Positions 1,794-43,816 of a DNA stretch of 64,000 bases are shown one piece after another (the first letter of the stretch is position 1; every line of letters starts with the position of its first letter). The notes below the pieces were generated by a model, which was given only the letters and a program-made list of their open reading frames with translations, was not told the origin of the DNA and made no database searches. The translations under genes and the position numbers were made by a program. The DNA comes from an uncultured Candidatus Saccharibacteria bacterium (GTDB taxonomy: Bacteria; Patescibacteriota; Saccharimonadia; Saccharimonadales; Saccharimonadaceae). The stretch covers positions 61,771 through 125,770 of the forward strand of contig CAMVDR010000001.1 of the NCBI GenBank assembly GCA_947166295.1. Reading direction: 5' to 3'.

Positions 1794-3868
1794 GAATTGG
1801 TTCCTTTCGTTAATTTTTTCATACCTAGGGTAGTGCGAATAATGAGTGGATCGGCGAGAATAAGTAATGACGGTAGGAAGGTTGGGACGACAAAGATACT
1901 GATGATGGCGCCACGAGCCATAAGCATACACATTGAGGAAATCATATCGGCTTGTGAATAAATAGCTACGCCAATGGTGGCGGCAAAGAGGACGGCGCCG
2001 GAAACAATAATAGAGGGTAGGGAAGTTTTGATAGAGATTTTGGCGGCATCACGCTTACTTAGGCCGGATATACGTTCGCGATTGTAGCGCGTAGTCATGA
2101 GGATAGCGTAATCTACCGTGGCACCTAGCTGGATGGTGCTGATGCAAATTGGTGTGATGAAAGAAAGCTGCGTGCCGGTAAAATGACATAGGCCGAGATT
2201 GATGAAAATTGCAGACTCTATAACGGCAATGAGGATGAACGGCAGGGAAATGCTTTTTGTAACAATGGCGATAATGATAAAGATGGCAACGATAGAAATA
2301 GTATTTACTACTTGAAAATCTACGGAAGTGAGATTAATCATGTCTTGGGTTAGGCTGGATTCGCCAACTAAGAGAGCTGAAGTATCGTGTTTTTTGATGA
2401 CTTGATTTATGCTGTTGATTTGTTCGGCGATTTCCGGTGTGGCGGTTTTGTATTCGGAAATAACGAGGGTTAGTTCGTAATTCTCACTTTTTAGAATATC
2501 GAGAATTTCGGTCGGTAAGATTTCGGCGGGAATTTGGTCGTCAATGACGCTTTCTAAGTTGAGAACAGATTTTACGCCGGCAATATTTTTGAGATCATTT
2601 GTCATGTTGAGAGCGGAATCGGTGCTTAGATGGGCGTCTGATAAAATCATGTGGACATTTTGCAAGCCAAAGTTTTCACTGAGTTTTTGGTTGGCTATGG
2701 CAAATGGCATATCGCTAGGCAAGCTATCACTGATAGTGTAGTAGACATTGTCATTGGTTTTTTGATAGCCGTAAAGGAATGGTGGGATGATGGCGACAAA
2801 TATGACAACAAATGCAGGGAAGATTTTAACGATTTTGCTGCTGAGTTTGGTGAAATCTGGTAGGATAGCTTTGTGATCTAATTTGCGAAGTGGTTTATCA
2901 AAGGTTAAGATTAGCGCTGGTAAAATTGTAACGCTGCCGATGACACCAAGAATAACGCCCTTAGCCATGACGATGCCTAAATCCACACCTAGCGTAAAGG
3001 TCATAAAACATAAGGCGATAAAGCCGGCAACGGTAGTGGCAGATGAACCGAATACGGAGCTAAGTGTGGCCTTGATGGCATTTTCCATGGCACGGTCGGG
3101 ATTGTTATTGGTGGCGAGATGTTCGCGGTATGAGTGCCAAAGGAAAATAGAATAATCCATAGTAACGGCAAGTTGCAAAATGGCTGATAAAGCTTTGGTG
3201 ATGTAGGATATCTCGCCAAGGAAAATATTGGTACCGAGGTTATAAAGAATCATTACACCAATGCTTACTAAAAACAGGATTGGTGCGAGCCAGTTGTCTA
3301 ACAATAGCAGCATTACGATGAGGGCTAAGGTTACAGCAATTATGATATAGAATAGCTCTTCGTTGCCGGATAGTTCGCGAAGGTCGGTAGTGAAAGCCGA
3401 CATGCCAGAGACATAGGCTTTGCCGTCTACTACACGGCGAATTTCTTTGATGGCGTTGATGGTTTCTTCGGCAGAAGACGAGGTGTCGAAAAATACAGCA
3501 ATTAGTGATTCGTCGCCTTTATGGAAAGTATTATAAATATTGTCTGGTAAAAATTCGGCAGGTAGACCAGCGTTTTCGATAGTGCCAAGGCCGAGAACGG
3601 TATCGACATGTTCTACTTTTTTGAGTTCAGTTTCTAGATTTGCTTCGGCATCGCTAGATAAACCTTCCGTGATAATCATAGAGAAGGCGCCTTTGTGAAA
3701 TTCTTCCATGAGCTTTTCTTGGCCGATAACAGTCTCCATGCTGTTTGGAAGATAATTTAGCATATCGTAATTAACTTTGGTACTAAACATGCCAATTAGC
3801 GCCGGAATAATTAAAATTACGGCGAGTAGCAAAATAAATTTGCGGTATTTTACAACGAATTTTCCCAT
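1790..3868 (-). CDS. MMPL/RND-superfamily membrane transporter
   Basis: Duplicated architecture with two sets of TM helices, including AILQLAVTMDYSIFLWH and STIQLGATVDYAILMTTRY. Confidence 0.85.
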   Translation of the reverse strand: MGKFVVKYRKFILLLAVILIIPALIGMFSTKVNYDMLNYLPNSMETVIGQEKLMEEFHKGAFSMIITEGLSSDAEANLETELKKVEHVDTVLGLGTIENAGLPAEFLPDNIYNTFHKGDESLIAVFFDTSSSAEETINAIKEIRRVVDGKAYVSGMSAFTTDLRELSGNEELFYIIIAVTLALIVMLLLLDNWLAPILFLVSIGVMILYNLGTNIFLGEISYITKALSAILQLAVTMDYSIFLWHSYREHLATNNNPDRAMENAIKATLSSVFGSSATTVAGFIALCFMTFTLGVDLGIVMAKGVILGVIGSVTILPALILTFDKPLRKLDHKAILPDFTKLSSKIVKIFPAFVVIFVAIIPPFLYGYQKTNDNVYYTISDSLPSDMPFAIANQKLSENFGLQNVHMILSDAHLSTDSALNMTNDLKNIAGVKSVLNLESVIDDQIPAEILPTEILDILKSENYELTLVISEYKTATPEIAEQINSINQVIKKHDTSALLVGESSLTQDMINLTSVDFQVVNTISIVAIFIIIAIVTKSISLPFILIAVIESAIFINLGLCHFTGTQLSFITPICISTIQLGATVDYAILMTTRYNRERISGLSKRDAAKISIKTSLPSIIVSGAVLFAATIGVAIYSQADMISSMCMLMARGAIISIFVVPTFLPSLLILADPLIIRTTLGMKKLTKGTNS

Positions 3869-4537: not shown

Positions 4538-6337
4538 TTAATCTTCTTCGGGAACGATGGCAAGATGAGCTTCGTCTAGCTGGATTTGGTCTACTGGTGA
4601 AGGGGAATTCATCATGAGATCTACACCAGAGCCGTTTTTTGGGAAGGCGATGATATCGCGGATGTTTTTCTCGCCTTCTAGTACCATAAAGATACGGTCT
4701 AGACCTGGGGCACAACCAGCGTGAGGTGGGGCACCAAATTTGAAAGCATTTAGCATGCCGCCAAAGCGAGCTTCGACGTATTCGTTGTTGTAGCCGAGAA
4801 TATTAAAGACTTTGTACATGATTTCTGGGTTGTAATTACGTACGGCACCGGAAGCGACTTCGTAGCCGTTCATCACCATATCATATTGGTCGGCGACGAT
4901 AGCGAGTTTATCGGTATCAGTTTTGGCGCTTTCTAGAGCAGGCAGACCGCCTTTTGGCATAGAAAATGGGTTGTGGCCAAAATCTAGTTTGTGGTTTTTA
5001 TCATCCCATTCGTAGAACGGAAAATCTACAATCCAACAGTAGGCAACTTCTTCATCGCTAGCGAGGTTGAAATGTTCGGCAAAGGCAATGCGAAGCGCGC
5101 CAAGTACTTTGTTGACTTTTTTGCGATCGTCTGCGCCAAAGAATACGGCATCGCCATCTGTGGCGCCGGTTTTTTCTTTGATGGCTTTAAGTTCTTTCTC
5201 GCTCAAGAACTTGGCGATAGGAGATTTGGCTTCGCCGTCTACGTATAGTATATACGCTAGGCCACCAGCGCCTTCTTTTTTAGCTTTATCGGTGAATTCG
5301 TCTATTTCGCGGCGGGTAAGCGAGGCACCACCTTTTACACAGATAGCTTTAACGCATTCAGATTTGAAAACTTTAAATTCGGTGTCTTTGAAATCTTCGG
5401 TGAGGTCAATGAGTTCCATACCGTAGCGAAGGTCTGGTTTGTCGGTGCCGTAGTTTTCCATAGATTCGTTAAATGGAATGCGCGGAATATCACTGCCTTT
5501 TACTAAGAATTCTTTAGCAATCTCAGACTTTAAGACGAGTTTTTTGTGGGCAAAGTCAGTAGCTAGGGAAGTATAGAGTGGCTCAATTTCTTGGCGGACG
5601 GTTTCACCATCCTCTACGAAAGCCATCTCCATGTCTAGCTGATAAAAATCGCCATATAATCTATCGGCACGAGGGTCTTCATCGCGGAAACAGGGGGCGA
5701 TTTGGAAATATTTATCTACGCCACCTACCATTAGAAGTTGCTTGAATTGCTGCGGAGCCTGTGGTAAGGCGTAAAATTTGCCGGGGTGCAAACGAGAAGG
5801 CACGAGGAAATCGCGAGCACCTTCTGGGGAAGAGTTGGCAAGAATCGGTGTAGTGATTTCGGTAAAACCGTGATCGTACATATAGTTGCGCAAGAAGCGG
5901 TAATATTCGGAACGACGTTTGAGGCGGTTTTGCATGGATGGTCGGCGAAGATCTAGATAGCGGTATTTTAAGCGCATTTCTTCGGAAGATTTTTCGCCGT
6001 CATCGTGAGTGTTGACCGGGAGAGGCTCCGACTTGTTGAGGAGCTCTAGATTTTCTACAACTAATTCTATTTTGCCGGTAGGGATGTTGGGATTAATGAG
6101 GGATGGCTCGCGTTCGCGCATGGTGCCGGTAGCTTTTAAGACAAATTCATCGCGGATGGTTTCGGCAAGAGCAAATGCATCTTTGGTTTCTGGAGTAATA
6201 ACTAACTGAATAATACCGGTGTGATCGCGCAAATCTATGAAAATGAGGCCACCGTGGTCGCGGCGAGAGTTAACCCAGCCTTCTACCATTACGGTTTTGC
6301 CCAAAAAATCATGTAAGTTTTCTACTAAAATTCTCAT
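4538..6337 (-). CDS. aspS: Aspartyl-tRNA synthetase
   Basis: Full-length class II AspRS; WVNSRRDHGGLIFIDLRD, FRDEDPRADR, GCAPGLDRIFMVL. Confidence 0.97.
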   Translation of the reverse strand: MRILVENLHDFLGKTVMVEGWVNSRRDHGGLIFIDLRDHTGIIQLVITPETKDAFALAETIRDEFVLKATGTMREREPSLINPNIPTGKIELVVENLELLNKSEPLPVNTHDDGEKSSEEMRLKYRYLDLRRPSMQNRLKRRSEYYRFLRNYMYDHGFTEITTPILANSSPEGARDFLVPSRLHPGKFYALPQAPQQFKQLLMVGGVDKYFQIAPCFRDEDPRADRLYGDFYQLDMEMAFVEDGETVRQEIEPLYTSLATDFAHKKLVLKSEIAKEFLVKGSDIPRIPFNESMENYGTDKPDLRYGMELIDLTEDFKDTEFKVFKSECVKAICVKGGASLTRREIDEFTDKAKKEGAGGLAYILYVDGEAKSPIAKFLSEKELKAIKEKTGATDGDAVFFGADDRKKVNKVLGALRIAFAEHFNLASDEEVAYCWIVDFPFYEWDDKNHKLDFGHNPFSMPKGGLPALESAKTDTDKLAIVADQYDMVMNGYEVASGAVRNYNPEIMYKVFNILGYNNEYVEARFGGMLNAFKFGAPPHAGCAPGLDRIFMVLEGEKNIRDIIAFPKNGSGVDLMMNSPSPVDQIQLDEAHLAIVPEED

Positions 6338-6414: not shown

Positions 6415-7947
6415 TTACTTAGCAATGCAGCGAATTGACCAACCGTAACCCTTGCCGTATGAGCCGTTAGGAATTACCTGGGTGGCGGTAAGTTTCAAAA
6501 AACCGGCCGAGCTTCCATTAAATGATGATGAAAGATAATTTCCAGAGTAACCTATGCTACTAGCCTTGCCATCAGCGTTAATTTCTCCGGAGGTAACGAA
6601 GTATAACGGATCGCTAATTAATCCCGTATCGGTATTAGTAGTGCCAGCATTATACAACTGATTAAGCCTTGCAAATTCATTAGTGGAACCAATTGTGCTT
6701 GCTCCTTGGTTAGATATAGTAGGTAATCGCCAACCTTTGGGGCAAATAGAATTCTTTGGGTTGTTAGTTACATTGTTAAATGTATTTCCGGTTAATGAAG
6801 AAGAATTGTTCGATGCTATAGCTGCTGTCCAATTATAATAATTGCCAAGTGATGCGTGTCCTATGTTGATATCGTCTGTCCTACTGGCGGAAGCTGGCAT
6901 AACACCGGATTTTGTCCAACCTGGAACAACTGTGCTGTTGCCACCGGTAAAGTCTATGGTAGTAGCAGTACTAGCCGGCTTCCAATATATTACTCCATTA
7001 TTTTCTGTGTATCCATTTTGGTATTCGCGATAGTTATTGGTAGATGCATCATAGGACACATTTAGGTCTGTAGTTTGGGAATTAAGTGTAGTATTGGCTT
7101 CTATATCAAAATCTAAGTTCTGCGTCATCCAGATATGCCCATCTGCCAATCTAGTTACCCAGTATTGTTTACCATCTCTAGTATCCATGGCCTGTAAGGT
7201 ATCACCTTGGTTTGGTATTTCATTTTGCCATTCGGATACGTTTTGCATAAGGTGTAAAGTGCCTATACTATCTCCAGACCCATGTATTAAGACATACGCT
7301 ACTTGCCCAGTATAAGTACCAGCATGCTGAGTAGGTGCAGTATATACAGCATAAGTAGTAGTAAAGGTTGAACCAGTAATCATGTCAGTAGTACCAGATT
7401 GTCTTCCTGCTACTTTGATCCAAGTACTAGGTACTAAGCCATAGGTATTATTATAATCTTGTTCTATAACTGGTGGAGTAGGTGAAGTATCGCCTGATAC
7501 ATTGCCTAACTTCATAGCCCAAGAAGAAGTAGTATCTCCTTGTTCGTATATACCAGTTGCTATATTATGATTACTGCTAACACTACTAATTAATGTATTA
7601 TTGCCCACTATACCATTACTAAGTCCATTAGCATATATAGCATACCCATTACCATCATTACATAGTGTAGTAATGGTGGTCTTACCTATATCAGAAGTAT
7701 AAGTTCCACTATTTAAAGTGGCATTATGAGCACTATTTACTACGCTAGATAATGTGCACGATGTAGGAAGAGATAATGTTAAACTATCTGCTGAAGCACC
7801 ACTAGTAACGGCAGAAGAATGAAAAGAACTTAACAATAAAGTAGATATAACTAAAATAGGCAAACTAACTAAAAGAATATTACGGAAAGCATAGTAGAAG
7901 AAATCTATTCTACTATTTGCTAAAGATTGTTTTACTTTGTGGCCCAT
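6415..7947 (-). CDS. Secreted/anchored FISUMP-domain surface protein (paralogue 1)
   Basis: MQNVSEWQN..QAMDTRDGKQYWVTRLADGHIWMTQNLDFD, ICPKGWRLPT, GWSIRCIAK; likely ATG at 7947 (MGHKVKQ, RBS AAGTGAGG). Confidence 0.75.
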   Translation of the reverse strand: MGHKVKQSLANSRIDFFYYAFRNILLVSLPILVISTLLLSSFHSSAVTSGASADSLTLSLPTSCTLSSVVNSAHNATLNSGTYTSDIGKTTITTLCNDGNGYAIYANGLSNGIVGNNTLISSVSSNHNIATGIYEQGDTTSSWAMKLGNVSGDTSPTPPVIEQDYNNTYGLVPSTWIKVAGRQSGTTDMITGSTFTTTYAVYTAPTQHAGTYTGQVAYVLIHGSGDSIGTLHLMQNVSEWQNEIPNQGDTLQAMDTRDGKQYWVTRLADGHIWMTQNLDFDIEANTTLNSQTTDLNVSYDASTNNYREYQNGYTENNGVIYWKPASTATTIDFTGGNSTVVPGWTKSGVMPASASRTDDINIGHASLGNYYNWTAAIASNNSSSLTGNTFNNVTNNPKNSICPKGWRLPTISNQGASTIGSTNEFARLNQLYNAGTTNTDTGLISDPLYFVTSGEINADGKASSIGYSGNYLSSSFNGSSAGFLKLTATQVIPNGSYGKGYGWSIRCIAK

Positions 7948-7983
7948 CTTTACCTCACTTATGTAACTTTGTAACTTCCCCAT

Positions 7984-8190
7984 GCGGTGCCACTATATTA
8001 ATGGGGATTAACAAAAATGGCACCGCAAGGGGTGCAACTACCTAATAATTCACATCATTAAATAACAATTATGAACGACTGGTATCCTTACGATGCCATT
8101 AAATATCGTTAAAATTGTTATTTATAATAATGATGTATAAAAATTTGATGTGAATTTATACATATTATTAAGTAGTTGCTCTTTTATTAT
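7984..8190 (-). ncRNA. Structured 5' leader RNA of FISUMP gene 1
   Basis: TATAAT directly upstream of a long stem (8034-8049/8164-8179); apical CCTTACGATGCCA (8086-8098), TGGCACCGCAAGG (8018-8030) and GCGGTGCCA (7984-7992) can form alternative pairs; homologous to the leader at 33628-33830. Confidence 0.6.
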
Positions 8191-8214
8191 ACAACAAAAA
8201 TAAAGCTAGTGAAA

Positions 8215-8790
8215 TTAATTTAATAAATAGTCTAATAAATTTTGGATGGTAAAGCAACCAACCATGGTTTCGTTACTGTCTAACACTAGAAAATAATAGC
8301 TATTGGTGCGCTCGATTTCCTCTACGGCGAATGTTAAAGAATCTGTAAGATGCAGGAATTGAACATTTTTATCTAAGTATTTCTCGGCGCGGTCGGTTTT
8401 TTTGATTTCTAGAGTATTGAGGGCTTCGGTGTGGATGACACCGGCAACTTTACCCTTACTATCGGTAACGGGGAAATTAGTAAAGCCAGATTTGTATAAT
8501 TTATCCAGGACTAGTGGGCCAAGAATTTCTTTTTTATCTACAAATACCATTTGGTTTTTGGGAATCATGAGATCGGCTACGGTGCGGGTATCAAAACTCA
8601 TGATGGCGGCAATACGGGCGCGGTCGGTACTACTGAGGATAGTCTTAGGAGTGCGGCGGAGTACGTCGATGAATTCTGGTAAAGTTTTGGGGGTGTATTT
8701 GGGAATTGGTGCAGGAGATTTTTTCGGCCGGTATTTTTCTAACTTTGGGTCGATAAACTTGACAAACTTCCGCATCATTTCTTCCAACAT
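8215..8790 (-). CDS. CBS-domain protein (CorC/hemolysin-like)
   Basis: TRTVADLMIPKNQMVFVDKKE...FTNFPVTDSKGKVAGVIHTEAL. Confidence 0.7.
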   Translation of the reverse strand: MLEEMMRKFVKFIDPKLEKYRPKKSPAPIPKYTPKTLPEFIDVLRRTPKTILSSTDRARIAAIMSFDTRTVADLMIPKNQMVFVDKKEILGPLVLDKLYKSGFTNFPVTDSKGKVAGVIHTEALNTLEIKKTDRAEKYLDKNVQFLHLTDSLTFAVEEIERTNSYYFLVLDSNETMVGCFTIQNLLDYLLN

Positions 8791-32111: not shown

Positions 32112-33596
32112 TTAACGCATTATACACCGCACGGAACGCCCGCTCATTCTGCCGTTATCAGTATAAGATGGACTAGCCGTATTACTTTTAAAATACATAT
32201 CATAAGTACTTGAACTTGATTTAACCGTACTAGATAAGTAATGTCCGAAACCAGCTCCAAAATTAGCGCCCCAAACATCACCGGATCTTATAAACCATAG
32301 CGGTTCGTCGATTAAGCCGGTATCTGTATTATTTAAATTATTGTTATATAAATAATTTAACCTTGCAAACTCATTAGTAGAACCAGATTCTGTTTCGGAT
32401 TGACTGGATATAGTAGGTAGCCTCCAACCTTTAGGGCAGATAGAGTTCTTGGGATTTTTAGATATATCATTTAGTGTATCTTGTTTTAATGAGGACGAAT
32501 TATTGCTAGCTATAGCCGCCGTCCAGTTATAATAATTACCCAGCGATGCGTGACCTGTTTCTGTGCTATCTGTTTTACTCGCAGAATATGGATTATTATT
32601 ATCGTTGCTCCAACCAGTTACAGTGGTATTCTGGAAGTCTATAGTTTTTCTTTCTGGTGTCCAGGTAGTAATACCAGTATTTGGATTATAATTATACCCA
32701 TCTACATAAGCATCAGTTAGAGAGTGGTCTGTTAAGTCTGTATCTTTAGAAGTAAGTGGTTTAGCAGGATCTAGGTCTAAGTCTAGATTTTGGGTCATCC
32801 AGATATTGCCATCTTTTAGTTTGGTGACCCAGTACTTTTTACCATCTCTTGTATCTATAGCCTGTACACTTTCTTCCATAGCAATATTGTTCTTCCATTT
32901 ATCTACTTCTTGCATATAGTATGGTGGTTTTTCGTATGAGGGGTGAGTTAGTAAATATTTCACTTGTCCATTGTATGTACCAGCATGTTGGTTAGAAGTA
33001 GTGTAGATGGCATAGGTAGTAGTAAAGGATGAGCCTTCGTCCATATCGGTAGTACCAGAAGGCCTAGAAGCTACTCTAGTCCAGTATTGTGGTACTAAAC
33101 CATAAGTATTGTCATAAGCTGGTTCTATAACTGCTGGAGTAGGAGAAGGATCATCTGGTATATTATTTAACTTCATAGCCCAATTAGAGATTAATCCACT
33201 GGTCGCTAATCCTGTGTCTATACTGTATTCAGGATGTTCTGCGTTAATGAGTTTAGTATTGCCATCTTCGTTGTTGCTATAGCCAGCAGCATATACACTA
33301 TACCCATTACCATCATTACATAGTGTAGTAATGGTAGTCTTACCTACATCACTATGATAAGTACCATTAGTAATCTCTTTAGTATGTGCACTATCTACTA
33401 CACTAGATAATGTACAAGAAACAGAAAGAGAGAACTGTATTTGATCTATACCAGAATTAGAGCCTGTAGCAGAAGAGCGGAGGGAAGACAAAATAATGGC
33501 AGAGATAATAATTAATGGGATACTAATCAAAAGAATGTTGCGGAAGAAATAGTAGAAGAAAACTGTATAATTTTCTGTTTTGTTATTATGGCTCAT
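32112..33596 (-). CDS. FISUMP-domain surface protein (paralogue 2)
   Basis: Colinear similarity to 6415..7947: SCTLSSVVDSAH, TTITTLCNDGNGYSVYA, VQAIDTRDGKKYWVTKLKDGNIWMTQNLDLD, ICPKGWRLPT. Confidence 0.78.
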   Translation of the reverse strand: MSHNNKTENYTVFFYYFFRNILLISIPLIIISAIILSSLRSSATGSNSGIDQIQFSLSVSCTLSSVVDSAHTKEITNGTYHSDVGKTTITTLCNDGNGYSVYAAGYSNNEDGNTKLINAEHPEYSIDTGLATSGLISNWAMKLNNIPDDPSPTPAVIEPAYDNTYGLVPQYWTRVASRPSGTTDMDEGSSFTTTYAIYTTSNQHAGTYNGQVKYLLTHPSYEKPPYYMQEVDKWKNNIAMEESVQAIDTRDGKKYWVTKLKDGNIWMTQNLDLDLDPAKPLTSKDTDLTDHSLTDAYVDGYNYNPNTGITTWTPERKTIDFQNTTVTGWSNDNNNPYSASKTDSTETGHASLGNYYNWTAAIASNNSSSLKQDTLNDISKNPKNSICPKGWRLPTISSQSETESGSTNEFARLNYLYNNNLNNTDTGLIDEPLWFIRSGDVWGANFGAGFGHYLSSTVKSSSSTYDMYFKSNTASPSYTDNGRMSGRSVRCIMR

Positions 33597-33627
33597 ATAT
33601 GTATTACCCTGTTTAATTATTTGGTCT

Positions 33628-33830
33628 TTGTGATGCCATTTTGTGTAAACGGGGTAGTATTACAAAAATGGCACCGCAAGGGTGTCATAAGCTATATTTC
33701 GCGTCAGAGTTACCTCTTTGAATCGAAACGGCTTTCTTGCGATGCCACTTATTGATTCAAAATGATAACTTTTGATACGAAAATGTCTGACGCATTTTCT
33801 GAATATAACTTATGACACTTTCATTATACC
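33628..33830 (-). ncRNA. Structured 5' leader RNA of FISUMP gene 2
   Basis: TATAAT then stem GTGTCATAAG/CTTATGACAC (33809-33818/33682-33691), GCGTCAGA/TCTGACGC; CTTGCGATGCCA, TGGCACCGCAAG, TTGTGATGCCA segments as in leader 1. Confidence 0.6.
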
Positions 33831-33885
33831 ACACAAAAAAGATTAGCAACTAGGAAATTGCTAATCTTTAGTTGGCGAGAAGAAA

Positions 33886-41563: not shown

Positions 41564-43816
41564 GTGAATTTTAGGCAACATCTAAGAAGTGAGCGAGCTC
41601 TGCGGTTGATGGGGTTGGTGGCTTGTGGGTTGTTGCTATTTTTGTGTGGTTTTGCAATTTGTCCGCCGACTCCGGTAATGGAAACCAGTGCTACCGCTGG
41701 TGATGCTAAAGCGGCTACAAATTCGGTAAAACTAAGCATAGGTGATGGTGGTACGTTATCTTTTGATTTGAAGCCATTTTCGGCAGATGGGACCTTCGCG
41801 GAATCTAGTGAGATGACTATTCTTGCCTCTACAGATAGTTATTCAGGATATACTTTAAGTATTTCAGCGCAGAGTGGTGATAATACGACAAAATTAATTA
41901 ACACTGATACGGTAAATTGTCCGGTGACCGAGACGAAGTGTTCTATTGCGCCACTACCTAGCACGTTAAATGGGGGGATTTTGAAAAGTGACTACGTAGA
42001 TCCAGCAAGTAGCGAAGATGTAAATGTGAGTATAAATACAGTGCGTAATACTTGGGGTTTTAGTCCGAGTGTTTATTTAAACTCAGGTGCTAATACGGTA
42101 AATAGAGGCCAAGGGGTAGATGAAAAATACTTCCCGGTGTCTACTACAGTGATGAATTTTGCAAAAACTAGTGGGCCAAACCCAAACGATGGGGGCGGTA
42201 GCGGATTGGCGCCAGATGAATACAAAATGAAGATAGGGGCAAGAGTAGATACGTCTATCCCGATGGGTACTTATAAGAATAATACTTTTGTGATTACCGC
42301 GGTAGGGAATGGAGCCTCTTATTCTATTACATATCTAGATGCTACGGGCGAAGGTTCTGGTATTCCAGGGGTGCAGTCTGGTACGGTTTATGATACTACG
42401 GTTACGTTGTCTAACGCTTCGCCAACTAGGGCAGGATATTATTTTGGAGGATGGTGTAGTGTGAGCACGACAGATGGTAGTTGTAGCGGTACGCCGTATG
42501 CACGGGGTGCTAGCTTCGGCATAGATCAGACAGCAAGTAGTAATACGGCTACGCTGTATGCAATGTGGGCACTTTGTCCAGTAAATACGGTTTGCTATGA
42601 CGATAATGGTGCGAGCAGTACTACAAAAATGAATAATCAGGAGTTAGCTGCTGAAGAAATCACAAACGGCGAGTTTAATTTAAGAGCTTCCAATTTTAAG
42701 AGAAGTGGTTATGGCTTTATTGGTTGGAGCGAGAAGCCCAATGCTGATATTGGCACAGATAAGATTTATGGCCCAATGGAAACCGTAAATAAGAGTTTGG
42801 CCTATGGCGGGTTGAAACTTTATGCGATATGGAAAGAGGCGGCAAAGGATGGTAGTAACAATCCGATATATTTCCAAGATTGGCAAACACAGAACGGTTG
42901 CAATAATTTAAAGGCTGCAGAGTATAGCAATGGGGCGCTGACGGTTGGGCTAAATACATTTACAGCCCTGACAGATAAGCGTGATGGTCAAGTTTATGCT
43001 GTGGCGAAGTTGGCAGATGGCAATTGTTGGATGATGGAAAACTTGCGGCTAGAGTCAACTGGTACGGTAGGTAATAATACGATAGACCCGAATGTAACTA
43101 ACCGGAGTTTGGCGCAAGGGTATGAAGGGGTATTTACCGGCTTAGCCGATCCGGAAACAGCTAATTTTTCTAATTCTACTGCGATGAATAAGCTAGGAAC
43201 CACTAATTATTATGGTACAGATGATAGTGGGGCAACGAATATCATTGATGCTGCGAGTCATACGTATGGTGATCCTGCCACTAACTATGCTGGTTATTAT
43301 TTCCCAAGATATAGGAATAGTAATACGAATCTTGCAGACGATTATTCTACTACAAGTGCTAATGCTAATACATATGCTTATGGTAATTACTATACTTGGA
43401 CAGCAGCGATGGCAAATACTACATTCTATAGAAGTTATGATGGCGCAGCAGATACTGATACTGGTTCCGATGCAGCAAATACTTCTATTTGTCCGAAAGG
43501 ATGGAGATTGCCATTGGGTGCGAGTTTTTCCAAACTAGATAAACAAATGGGGGGTACCGGCGCGAATCAGTCTAGCACGGCTGGTACTACGCAGTCTAAA
43601 GTATGGCGCAGCTTCCCAAATAATTTCCTCTACTCCGGCTACGCCGGCAATAGCGATATTAACTATCGCGGGTCGGACGGGTACTACTGGTCCTCGTCCG
43701 CGTACAATGCTAACCTCGCCTACCGCCTGTACCTCTACAGTTCTTATCTCCTCCCAGGTACGGATGGCTACGGTAAGTACTACGGTTTAACCGTCCGTTG
43801 CGTAGCCGGCTCGTAG
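41564..43816 (+). CDS. InlB-repeat plus FISUMP-domain surface protein (paralogue 3), GTG start
   Basis: YSITYLDATGEGSGIPG..TRAGYYFGGWCS; DKRDGQVYAVAKLADGNCWMMENLRL; SICPKGWRLP; C-terminal GYYWSSSAYNANLAYRLYLYSS..GLTVRCVAGS. Confidence 0.78.
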   Translation: MNFRQHLRSERALRLMGLVACGLLLFLCGFAICPPTPVMETSATAGDAKAATNSVKLSIGDGGTLSFDLKPFSADGTFAESSEMTILASTDSYSGYTLSISAQSGDNTTKLINTDTVNCPVTETKCSIAPLPSTLNGGILKSDYVDPASSEDVNVSINTVRNTWGFSPSVYLNSGANTVNRGQGVDEKYFPVSTTVMNFAKTSGPNPNDGGGSGLAPDEYKMKIGARVDTSIPMGTYKNNTFVITAVGNGASYSITYLDATGEGSGIPGVQSGTVYDTTVTLSNASPTRAGYYFGGWCSVSTTDGSCSGTPYARGASFGIDQTASSNTATLYAMWALCPVNTVCYDDNGASSTTKMNNQELAAEEITNGEFNLRASNFKRSGYGFIGWSEKPNADIGTDKIYGPMETVNKSLAYGGLKLYAIWKEAAKDGSNNPIYFQDWQTQNGCNNLKAAEYSNGALTVGLNTFTALTDKRDGQVYAVAKLADGNCWMMENLRLESTGTVGNNTIDPNVTNRSLAQGYEGVFTGLADPETANFSNSTAMNKLGTTNYYGTDDSGATNIIDAASHTYGDPATNYAGYYFPRYRNSNTNLADDYSTTSANANTYAYGNYYTWTAAMANTTFYRSYDGAADTDTGSDAANTSICPKGWRLPLGASFSKLDKQMGGTGANQSSTAGTTQSKVWRSFPNNFLYSGYAGNSDINYRGSDGYYWSSSAYNANLAYRLYLYSSYLLPGTDGYGKYYGLTVRCVAGS
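43611..43813 (+). other. Candidate DGR-type variable region
   Basis: Abrupt compositional change; long run of mostly NNC/NNT codons in a CLec-type C-terminus; hyphenated palindrome GCCTC-T-GAGGC (43834-43844) just after the stop. Confidence 0.4.

Follow-up and report, generated by a model that had tools for sequence, protein, structure and literature searches.

A multicopy leader RNA, most likely a transcription attenuator, upstream of surface-protein genes in Candidatus Saccharibacteria

Introduction

In the preQ1-I, ZTP, and fluoride riboswitches, an apical loop pairs with a downstream strand, and this pairing overlaps an intrinsic terminator or competes with it. In pT181-type attenuators, mutually exclusive segments of the leader decide whether a terminator hairpin forms. 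The RepZ leader of Inc plasmids (ColIb-P9 type) uses a pseudoknot between a hairpin loop and a downstream strand to control translation, and an antisense RNA targets it. T-box leaders share a core, UGGNACC, whose UGG is invariant and serves for pairing with the CCA of a tRNA. Finally, the ompA and ermC leaders are cited as cases in which a paired 5' end protects the message against 5'-end-dependent decay.

How the episymbiotic Saccharibacteria regulate their genes is little understood. We analyzed a stretch of 64,000 nucleotides ("the window") from the genome of an uncultured Candidatus Saccharibacteria bacterium. The original prediction, made from the letters of this stretch, was that the leader of one gene for a FISUMP-domain protein may be an RNA switch. 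We find that this leader is real and that it is one of tens of copies, a second of which lies in the same window. The copy number is unusually high (36 in less than 0.8 Mb), and the leader is tied to a large, fast-changing set of surface proteins with a possible role in contact with host bacteria; elsewhere in the class, it is tied to restriction-modification genes and to other accessory genes. We propose, with moderate confidence, that the leader represents a previously undescribed class of cis-acting RNA and is most likely a transcription attenuator.

A structured leader upstream of a FISUMP gene

The gene and its leader (copy 1) have the following features, in window positions:

8186-8194, minus strand: -10 region TTGTATAAT, from the sequence and a promoter scan, with TATAAT at 8186-8191
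8011-8180, minus strand: structured leader RNA, copy 1 (covariance model R1, 61 bits, E = 6.6e-12; model R2, 84 bits, E = 2e-16)
8164-8179, minus strand: 5' arm of P1, GCAACTACTTAATAAT, part of the rod, from constrained folding and covariation
8113-8122, minus strand: 5' arm of P3, AAUAACAAUU, from covariation, sequence, and fold
8086-8098, minus strand: segment A, UGGCAUCGUAAGG, in the apical loop, partner of B
8061-8070, minus strand: 3' arm of P3, AAUUGUUAUU, from covariation, sequence, and fold
8034-8049, minus strand: 3' arm of P1, ATTATTAGGTAGTTGC, partner of 8164-8179
8020-8035, minus strand: T, a terminator-like hairpin, GCACC-CCUUGC-GGUGC, then CAUUUUU
8018-8030, minus strand: segment B, CCUUGCGGUGCCA, which can pair with A, within T, or with C
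8013-8017, minus strand: U5 tract, directly 3' of B
7978-7992, minus strand: segment C, UGGCACCGCAUGGGG, alternative partner of B
6415-7947, minus strand: FISUMP-domain surface protein of 510 amino acids (PF09603, E = 2.6e-7; TIGR02145, E = 1.3e-12)

Every segment that had been named in this leader (the TATAAT, a long stem, the apical segment A, and the downstream segments B and C) was found on the minus strand, and B pairs as claimed: with A it forms 13 pairs, including two G-U, and with the core of C (UGGCACCGC, 7984-7992) it forms 9 perfect pairs. If C is extended to 7978-7992, it pairs with CCCCUUGCGGUGCCA with one mismatch. The claim that C lies near the start codon needs adjustment. The start codon is more likely at 7945-7947 than at 7981-7983, because a Shine-Dalgarno sequence (GAGG, 7953-7956) lies just upstream of the former, and this probable start puts C about 36 nt upstream.

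The transcription start, which we infer from the fixed -10 box, would be the first base of P1. The predicted fold of 7948-8180 has an energy of -81.2 kcal/mol, against a mean of -41.1 for shuffled sequences (z = -9.8; none of 200 shuffles was as good). A scan of 7900-8300 found only one terminator-like site, where 0.1 were expected. This site is hairpin T, whose arms in copy 1 are GCACC (8031-8035) and GGUGC (8020-8024).

Leader copies across the genome

Recurrence is the strongest evidence that the leader is not a product of chance: models R1 and R2 recover both copies in the window, and R1 finds 36 copies in the genome of about 0.77 Mb. With leader 1 as the query, a search of its own genome gave tens of matches, nearly all of them via its 3' third. 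The second copy in the window ("leader 2") has these features:

33823-33831, minus strand: interval that contains the -10 box of copy 2
33662-33817, minus strand: leader copy 2 (R1, 92 bits; R2, 109 bits)
33735-33748, minus strand: segment A of copy 2
33662-33680, minus strand: B and U5 of copy 2
33626-33638, minus strand: segment C of copy 2
32112-33596, minus strand: FISUMP gene downstream of copy 2

We compared 35 regions of the genome, aligned by position. The copies have in common a -10 box, a rod of about 40 base pairs that begins at the expected +1, the apical segment A, and then B with U5 directly behind it. A TATAAT-like box is present in most copies at the same spacing, with P1 beginning about 6 nt downstream. 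P1 has at least 13 uninterrupted pairs in nearly all copies, and its sequence varies from copy to copy. Its 5' arm is followed by a U-rich asymmetric loop, P2/P3, the apical segment YGGCRYCGNRAGG, and the second arm of P1. The apical loop that holds segment A is C-GNRA-G in most copies. The 3' end of the leader is nearly invariant (GCACC-CUUGCGGUGCC-AUUUUUGU), and within one genome A and B are nearly identical across all copies. Constrained folding gave the same kind of rod in all copies.

A FISUMP ORF lies downstream in all 26 of the copies that have enough downstream sequence. One FISUMP gene with its full upstream region has no leader match (window 41564-43816, plus strand, 750 amino acids); the other fetched FISUMP genes without a match reach or nearly reach contig ends. 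Six contigs of this genome (C2, C3, C12, C14, C17, and C29) terminate inside the constant part of the leader, which implies that the repeat limits the assembly and that the copy number of this genome is a lower bound.

Covariation of the rod and of the A:B helix

Model R1 was built from five structurally alignable leaders. Across 89 leaders from many genomes, 94.8% of the cells in the rod are paired (56.5% after shuffling), with double compensatory changes at 39 of 40 pairs in sequences that are almost wholly different; this alignment was fitted to the rod and so is biased towards rod covariation, and an arm-swap test without such fitting agrees. In that test, the arms of P1 are 98% paired, against 57% after arms were swapped between copies. 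The first 16 pairs of P1 in 154 leaders comprise 2223 Watson-Crick, 187 G-U, and 13 A-C cells; because G-U is so much more common than A-C on the transcribed strand, we conclude that the rod folds as a strand-specific RNA. The G-U wobbles of P1 have the U on the 5' arm in 173 cases versus 14 and are clustered at pairs 9-10 from the base. This cluster is possibly a mark for recognition or processing.

The A:B helix was left out of the covariance model, yet it covaries too. In the 89 leaders, 96.0% of A:B cells are paired and 7 of 14 pairs show double changes; there are 50 double-change cells, compared to 10.4 +/- 2.7 after shuffling, a count that none of 500 shuffles reached. Shifting the partner by 1-3 columns lowers the pairing to 37-49%. 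Of the unique leaders that carry a U tract (154), 127 have 12 of 12 A:B pairs and 26 have 11; the second set of loci was chosen by the A..B pattern and is biased for this count, while the first set is not. Distant leaders have new, matched variants of A and B (CAGCAUCACGAGG/CCUCGUGGUGCUG, GGGCAUCGUAAG/CUUACGGUGCCC, and UGGCAUCAUGAUGG/CCAUCGUGGUGCCA), and in the more distant genera an A-tract:U-tract pairing extends A:B to 12-16 unbroken pairs in nearly all leaders. When RNAalifold was run on a plain MAFFT alignment, only A:B was recovered, because the rods are not alignable by sequence.

Covariation among homologous leaders had been set beforehand as a test of the original prediction, and it is strong for the rod and for A:B. 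The strongly conserved bases are those of A, B, the U tract, and the base of P1; in the internal loops of the rod, the leader alignments contain no conserved sequence beyond a U-rich tendency. Overall, these sequence comparisons firmly support the structure of the leader.

The total length of the rod is fairly constant (39.5 +/- 3.4 pairs). We rejected the idea of an exact fold-back with matched lengths of P1 and P2+P3, as their correlation is -0.38 and not positive. In four pairs of leaders (L036/L113, L018/L117, L031/L103, and L020/L118), the rod interiors change much more quickly than the upstream flank next to them, and the two arms change in concert.

Three partners for strand B

Strand B can pair with the apical segment A, with the GCACC at the end of P1 (giving hairpin T), or with the downstream segment C. 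The proposal that pairings compete in an RNA switch holds, with a different set of competitors. Of the testable leaders of this genome, 27 of 28 have a clear segment C, as do about one third of the other leaders, so B:C is rejected as the conserved switch. (In L075, B carries a change that is matched in C but not in A.) A:B and T are present in nearly all leaders; A:B had been predicted, while T, which is also near-universal, had been overlooked.

As in an intrinsic terminator, the stem of T stands directly before a U tract (8035-8020 followed by CAUUUUU in copy 1), and four or more U follow B in 154 of 156 unique leaders; L092 and L149 lack the U tract. T has 4-6 pairs in most copies, followed by 1-3 nt and then U5, and its fifth pair is an A-C mismatch in 20 leaders. 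It is nearly invariant and shows little covariation, so covariation neither proves nor refutes it. T shares GCA with the base of P1 and GGUGC with A:B, so that, as in an attenuator, there are pairings that exclude the terminator stem.

The rod with T and the rod alone are nearly isoenergetic: the difference is -0.40 +/- 0.60 kcal/mol across 142 leaders, a poise that may partly reflect the shared invariant bases. A nested fold that is forced to hold A:B is less stable than the rod in 140 of the 142 leaders, by 9 kcal/mol on average. This implies that A:B would have to form as a pseudoknot with the rod bent, on a rod that is disrupted, or in trans.

Distribution and downstream genes

With covariance-model E-values taken as rough and copy counts in other genomes as lower bounds, 34 of 80 genomes from the same genus match at E <= 0.001, some of them with at least 38 copies. 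Matches in the class come from 66 of 393 genomes, in 20 of 153 genera, and the other genera mostly have one copy. In a sample of 287 genomes from the phylum, the five that match all belong to the same family as our genome. Named records with the A..B pattern are from Ca. Saccharibacteria, many of them from the ruminant gut, except for two rabbit-gut MAGs that are labelled Clostridia or Oscillospiraceae (L211 and L224; in L211 a FISUMP-like ORF follows). These labels are perhaps due to mis-binning.

Behind leaders in other genera, the following genes were found:

L302: type II restriction-modification pair
L306: type III methyltransferase (L309 has a similar protein)
L307: small protein, followed by a metallo-beta-lactamase of the kind that occurs in defence models
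L314: small protein, then HSP70
L295: OmpA-like protein
L311: FISUMP protein

A TM2 gene is also found downstream of leaders, and the other downstream genes in other genera encode unknown membrane or secreted proteins. The common thread is that these genes are accessory or envelope genes. In four of the leaders from other genera (L302, L306, L307, and L309), the genes behind are restriction-modification or defence-like.

L092 (1501-1628) is a variant that lacks U5 and lies 203 nt before rpsL; behind it, B plus the P1 arm recur as a long, perfect inverted repeat. In two genomes a leader (L085, 1501-1646; L143, 1501-1643) faces a convergent gene and has no gene behind it. The U tracts of these two are UUUUUCUUUU and UUUUUUU, which are longer than usual. 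The long U tracts fit what is expected of self-terminating RNAs, and these two leaders may possibly be free RNAs.

Diversification of the surface genes

We compared loci with near-identical upstream flanks between our genome and that of a sister species (G080; the AspS proteins are 97% identical). Behind some identical leaders, the coding sequences are only 49-60% identical (L011/L094 and L012/L104). At other loci the rods are 66-80% identical, with both arms changed together and the promoter and P1 arms mostly kept. At five loci (L011, L012, L013, L030, and L039, corresponding to L094, L104, L098, L108, and L096 in G080), non-orthologous coding sequences lie behind orthologous leaders, and most of the flanks are highly similar. 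This is either cassette exchange or extreme diversification of the surface genes.

Our genome also encodes a diversity-generating retroelement (DGR) on contig G000:C10, with a reverse transcriptase (RT), a template repeat (TR), and the end of a FISUMP gene as the target. Its parts, numbered within locus L257 (G000:C10:17500-23068), are:

2424-2661: TR
2670-3836: RT
4731-5567: end of the FISUMP gene

The TR and the variable repeat (VR) are 90% identical over 238 nt, and 23 of 24 substitutions are at adenines of the TR. Other FISUMP genes of this genome have partial similarity to the DGR repeat, and RT genes are present in all five of the genomes tested. DGRs are known in CPR bacteria (PMC8144416). 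The DGR accounts for variation at the ends of the proteins but not for the rod or the switch in the leader.

Attenuation and its alternatives

In the attenuation mechanism that we propose, strand B would choose between its partners during the time that RNA polymerase spends at U5. If T forms and the base of P1 is peeled open, transcription would end after about 160-170 nt and the gene would be off. If instead P1 remains closed, with B and the U tract captured by A in a pseudoknot, T would be blocked and transcription would proceed; where C is present, B:C would form after read-through. The winning fold might be set by a factor that acts on the rod (a protein, an RNase, or an RNA) or by chance folding, and would determine the fraction of leaders that are open. 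Within the genus, the device has proliferated in front of dozens of surface-antigen genes. Both premature termination at U5 and its regulation are what we infer from the arrangement of these segments. Several observations fit this mechanism poorly. A:B adjoins the U tract directly and could itself be the terminator; T has few pairs in most copies, with the mismatch noted above; the rod beats the nested fold that holds A:B in nearly every leader; and the U tract is missing from the leader near rpsL and from L149.

The layout had originally been described as typical of attenuators and riboswitches. The first of these is better supported than a metabolite riboswitch, because conserved bases are found only in A, B, the U tract, and the base of P1. 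A multi-helix fold with alternative pairings, a terminator-like element, and a wide range of downstream genes would suit a metabolite-binding riboswitch, but there is no conserved unpaired pocket, the rod is nearly free to vary, and the downstream genes share no common pathway, so we view this as very unlikely. Instead, the leader might stabilize the mRNA or influence its translation: its paired 5' end would block decay from that end, and A:B or B:C would only shape the region before the ribosome binding site. P1 does begin at the expected +1, so that the 5' end would be base-paired in all copies, and B:C is a strong local hairpin in the copies of this genome. However, a simple stem would suffice for such a role, which leaves the conserved A:B helix and the near-universal U tract unexplained. 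Also, in most copies the distance from B to the downstream Shine-Dalgarno sequence is tens of nucleotides, so B does not mask it. We consider this explanation unlikely, although it is the one of these alternatives to which we give the most weight.

We give slightly less credence to a stand-alone or processed small RNA that is ended by T or by A:B, with the surface gene expressed by read-through and with A and B acting in trans on other leaders. The two gene-less copies with their longer U tracts agree with this, and pairing in trans is possible given that A and B are near-identical within a genome, but most copies with enough flanking sequence stand 20-290 nt before an ORF. A more speculative idea, and in our judgement an improbable one, is that because tens of leaders per cell share A and B and have private rods, leader fragments might act on each other in trans as a family-wide selector of surface antigens. 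If so, a few of the roughly 40 diversified surface proteins would be favoured for expression at a time. The least likely of the four alternatives to attenuation outside this selector idea, and one that we regard as highly improbable, is that the rod is a DNA element for the exchange of surface cassettes, either an attC-like site that folds as a single strand or a mobile inverted repeat. The different coding sequences behind identical leaders in sister genomes, and the contig breaks at the constant part, could be read in this way. Against it, the excess of G-U over A-C (187 versus 13) on the transcribed strand is a mark of RNA folding, for which we rejected integron attC-like sites; the distance to the -10 box is fixed; and homologous recombination in the shared stretch from B to the ATG would account for the exchange. 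Transcription attenuation remains our preferred explanation.

Comparison with known leader RNAs

The original prediction could not assign the leader to any known riboswitch class, and a search of Rfam 15 agrees: only tRNAs reach the gathering score in the whole window, nothing overlaps the leader at E <= 5 in six loci of this genome, and there is no match at E <= 1 in 14 distant loci. A literature search found no paper on the leader RNA and none with the word FISUMP; many subscription papers were outside its coverage, so this is no proof of novelty. Judged by its sequences, the leader is a covariation-supported class of RNA without a counterpart in Rfam.

The core of C (UGGCACCGC) had raised the question of a T-box. 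Like T-box leaders (RF00230), this RNA has a terminator-like hairpin that competes with other pairings, and its A and C segments resemble the T-box core (UGGNACCGCG). Unlike in T-boxes, the first base of the UGG is not invariant (segment A begins with U in 55 of 89 leaders, with C in 28, with G in 5, and with A in 1), and the downstream genes are unrelated to amino acids. Furthermore, no Stem I or specifier loop was seen in the leader, the whole of which is a rod of about 150 nt. With the variable first base and no Rfam T-box match, we rejected this identity.

The leader resembles the preQ1-I, ZTP, and fluoride classes in that its A-B pairing overlaps or competes with a putative terminator; it differs from them in having no conserved ligand pocket, a rod of about 40 base pairs that is nearly free to vary, and up to tens of copies per genome. 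As in the RepZ leader, a hairpin loop pairs with a downstream strand to give a potential control pseudoknot, but in the present leader that strand is immediately followed by a U tract, and there is no known antisense RNA. The parallel with pT181-type attenuators is that competing pairings would decide whether the terminator forms; the order of the segments and the long rod set this leader apart from them, as does the fact that no antisense partner was found.
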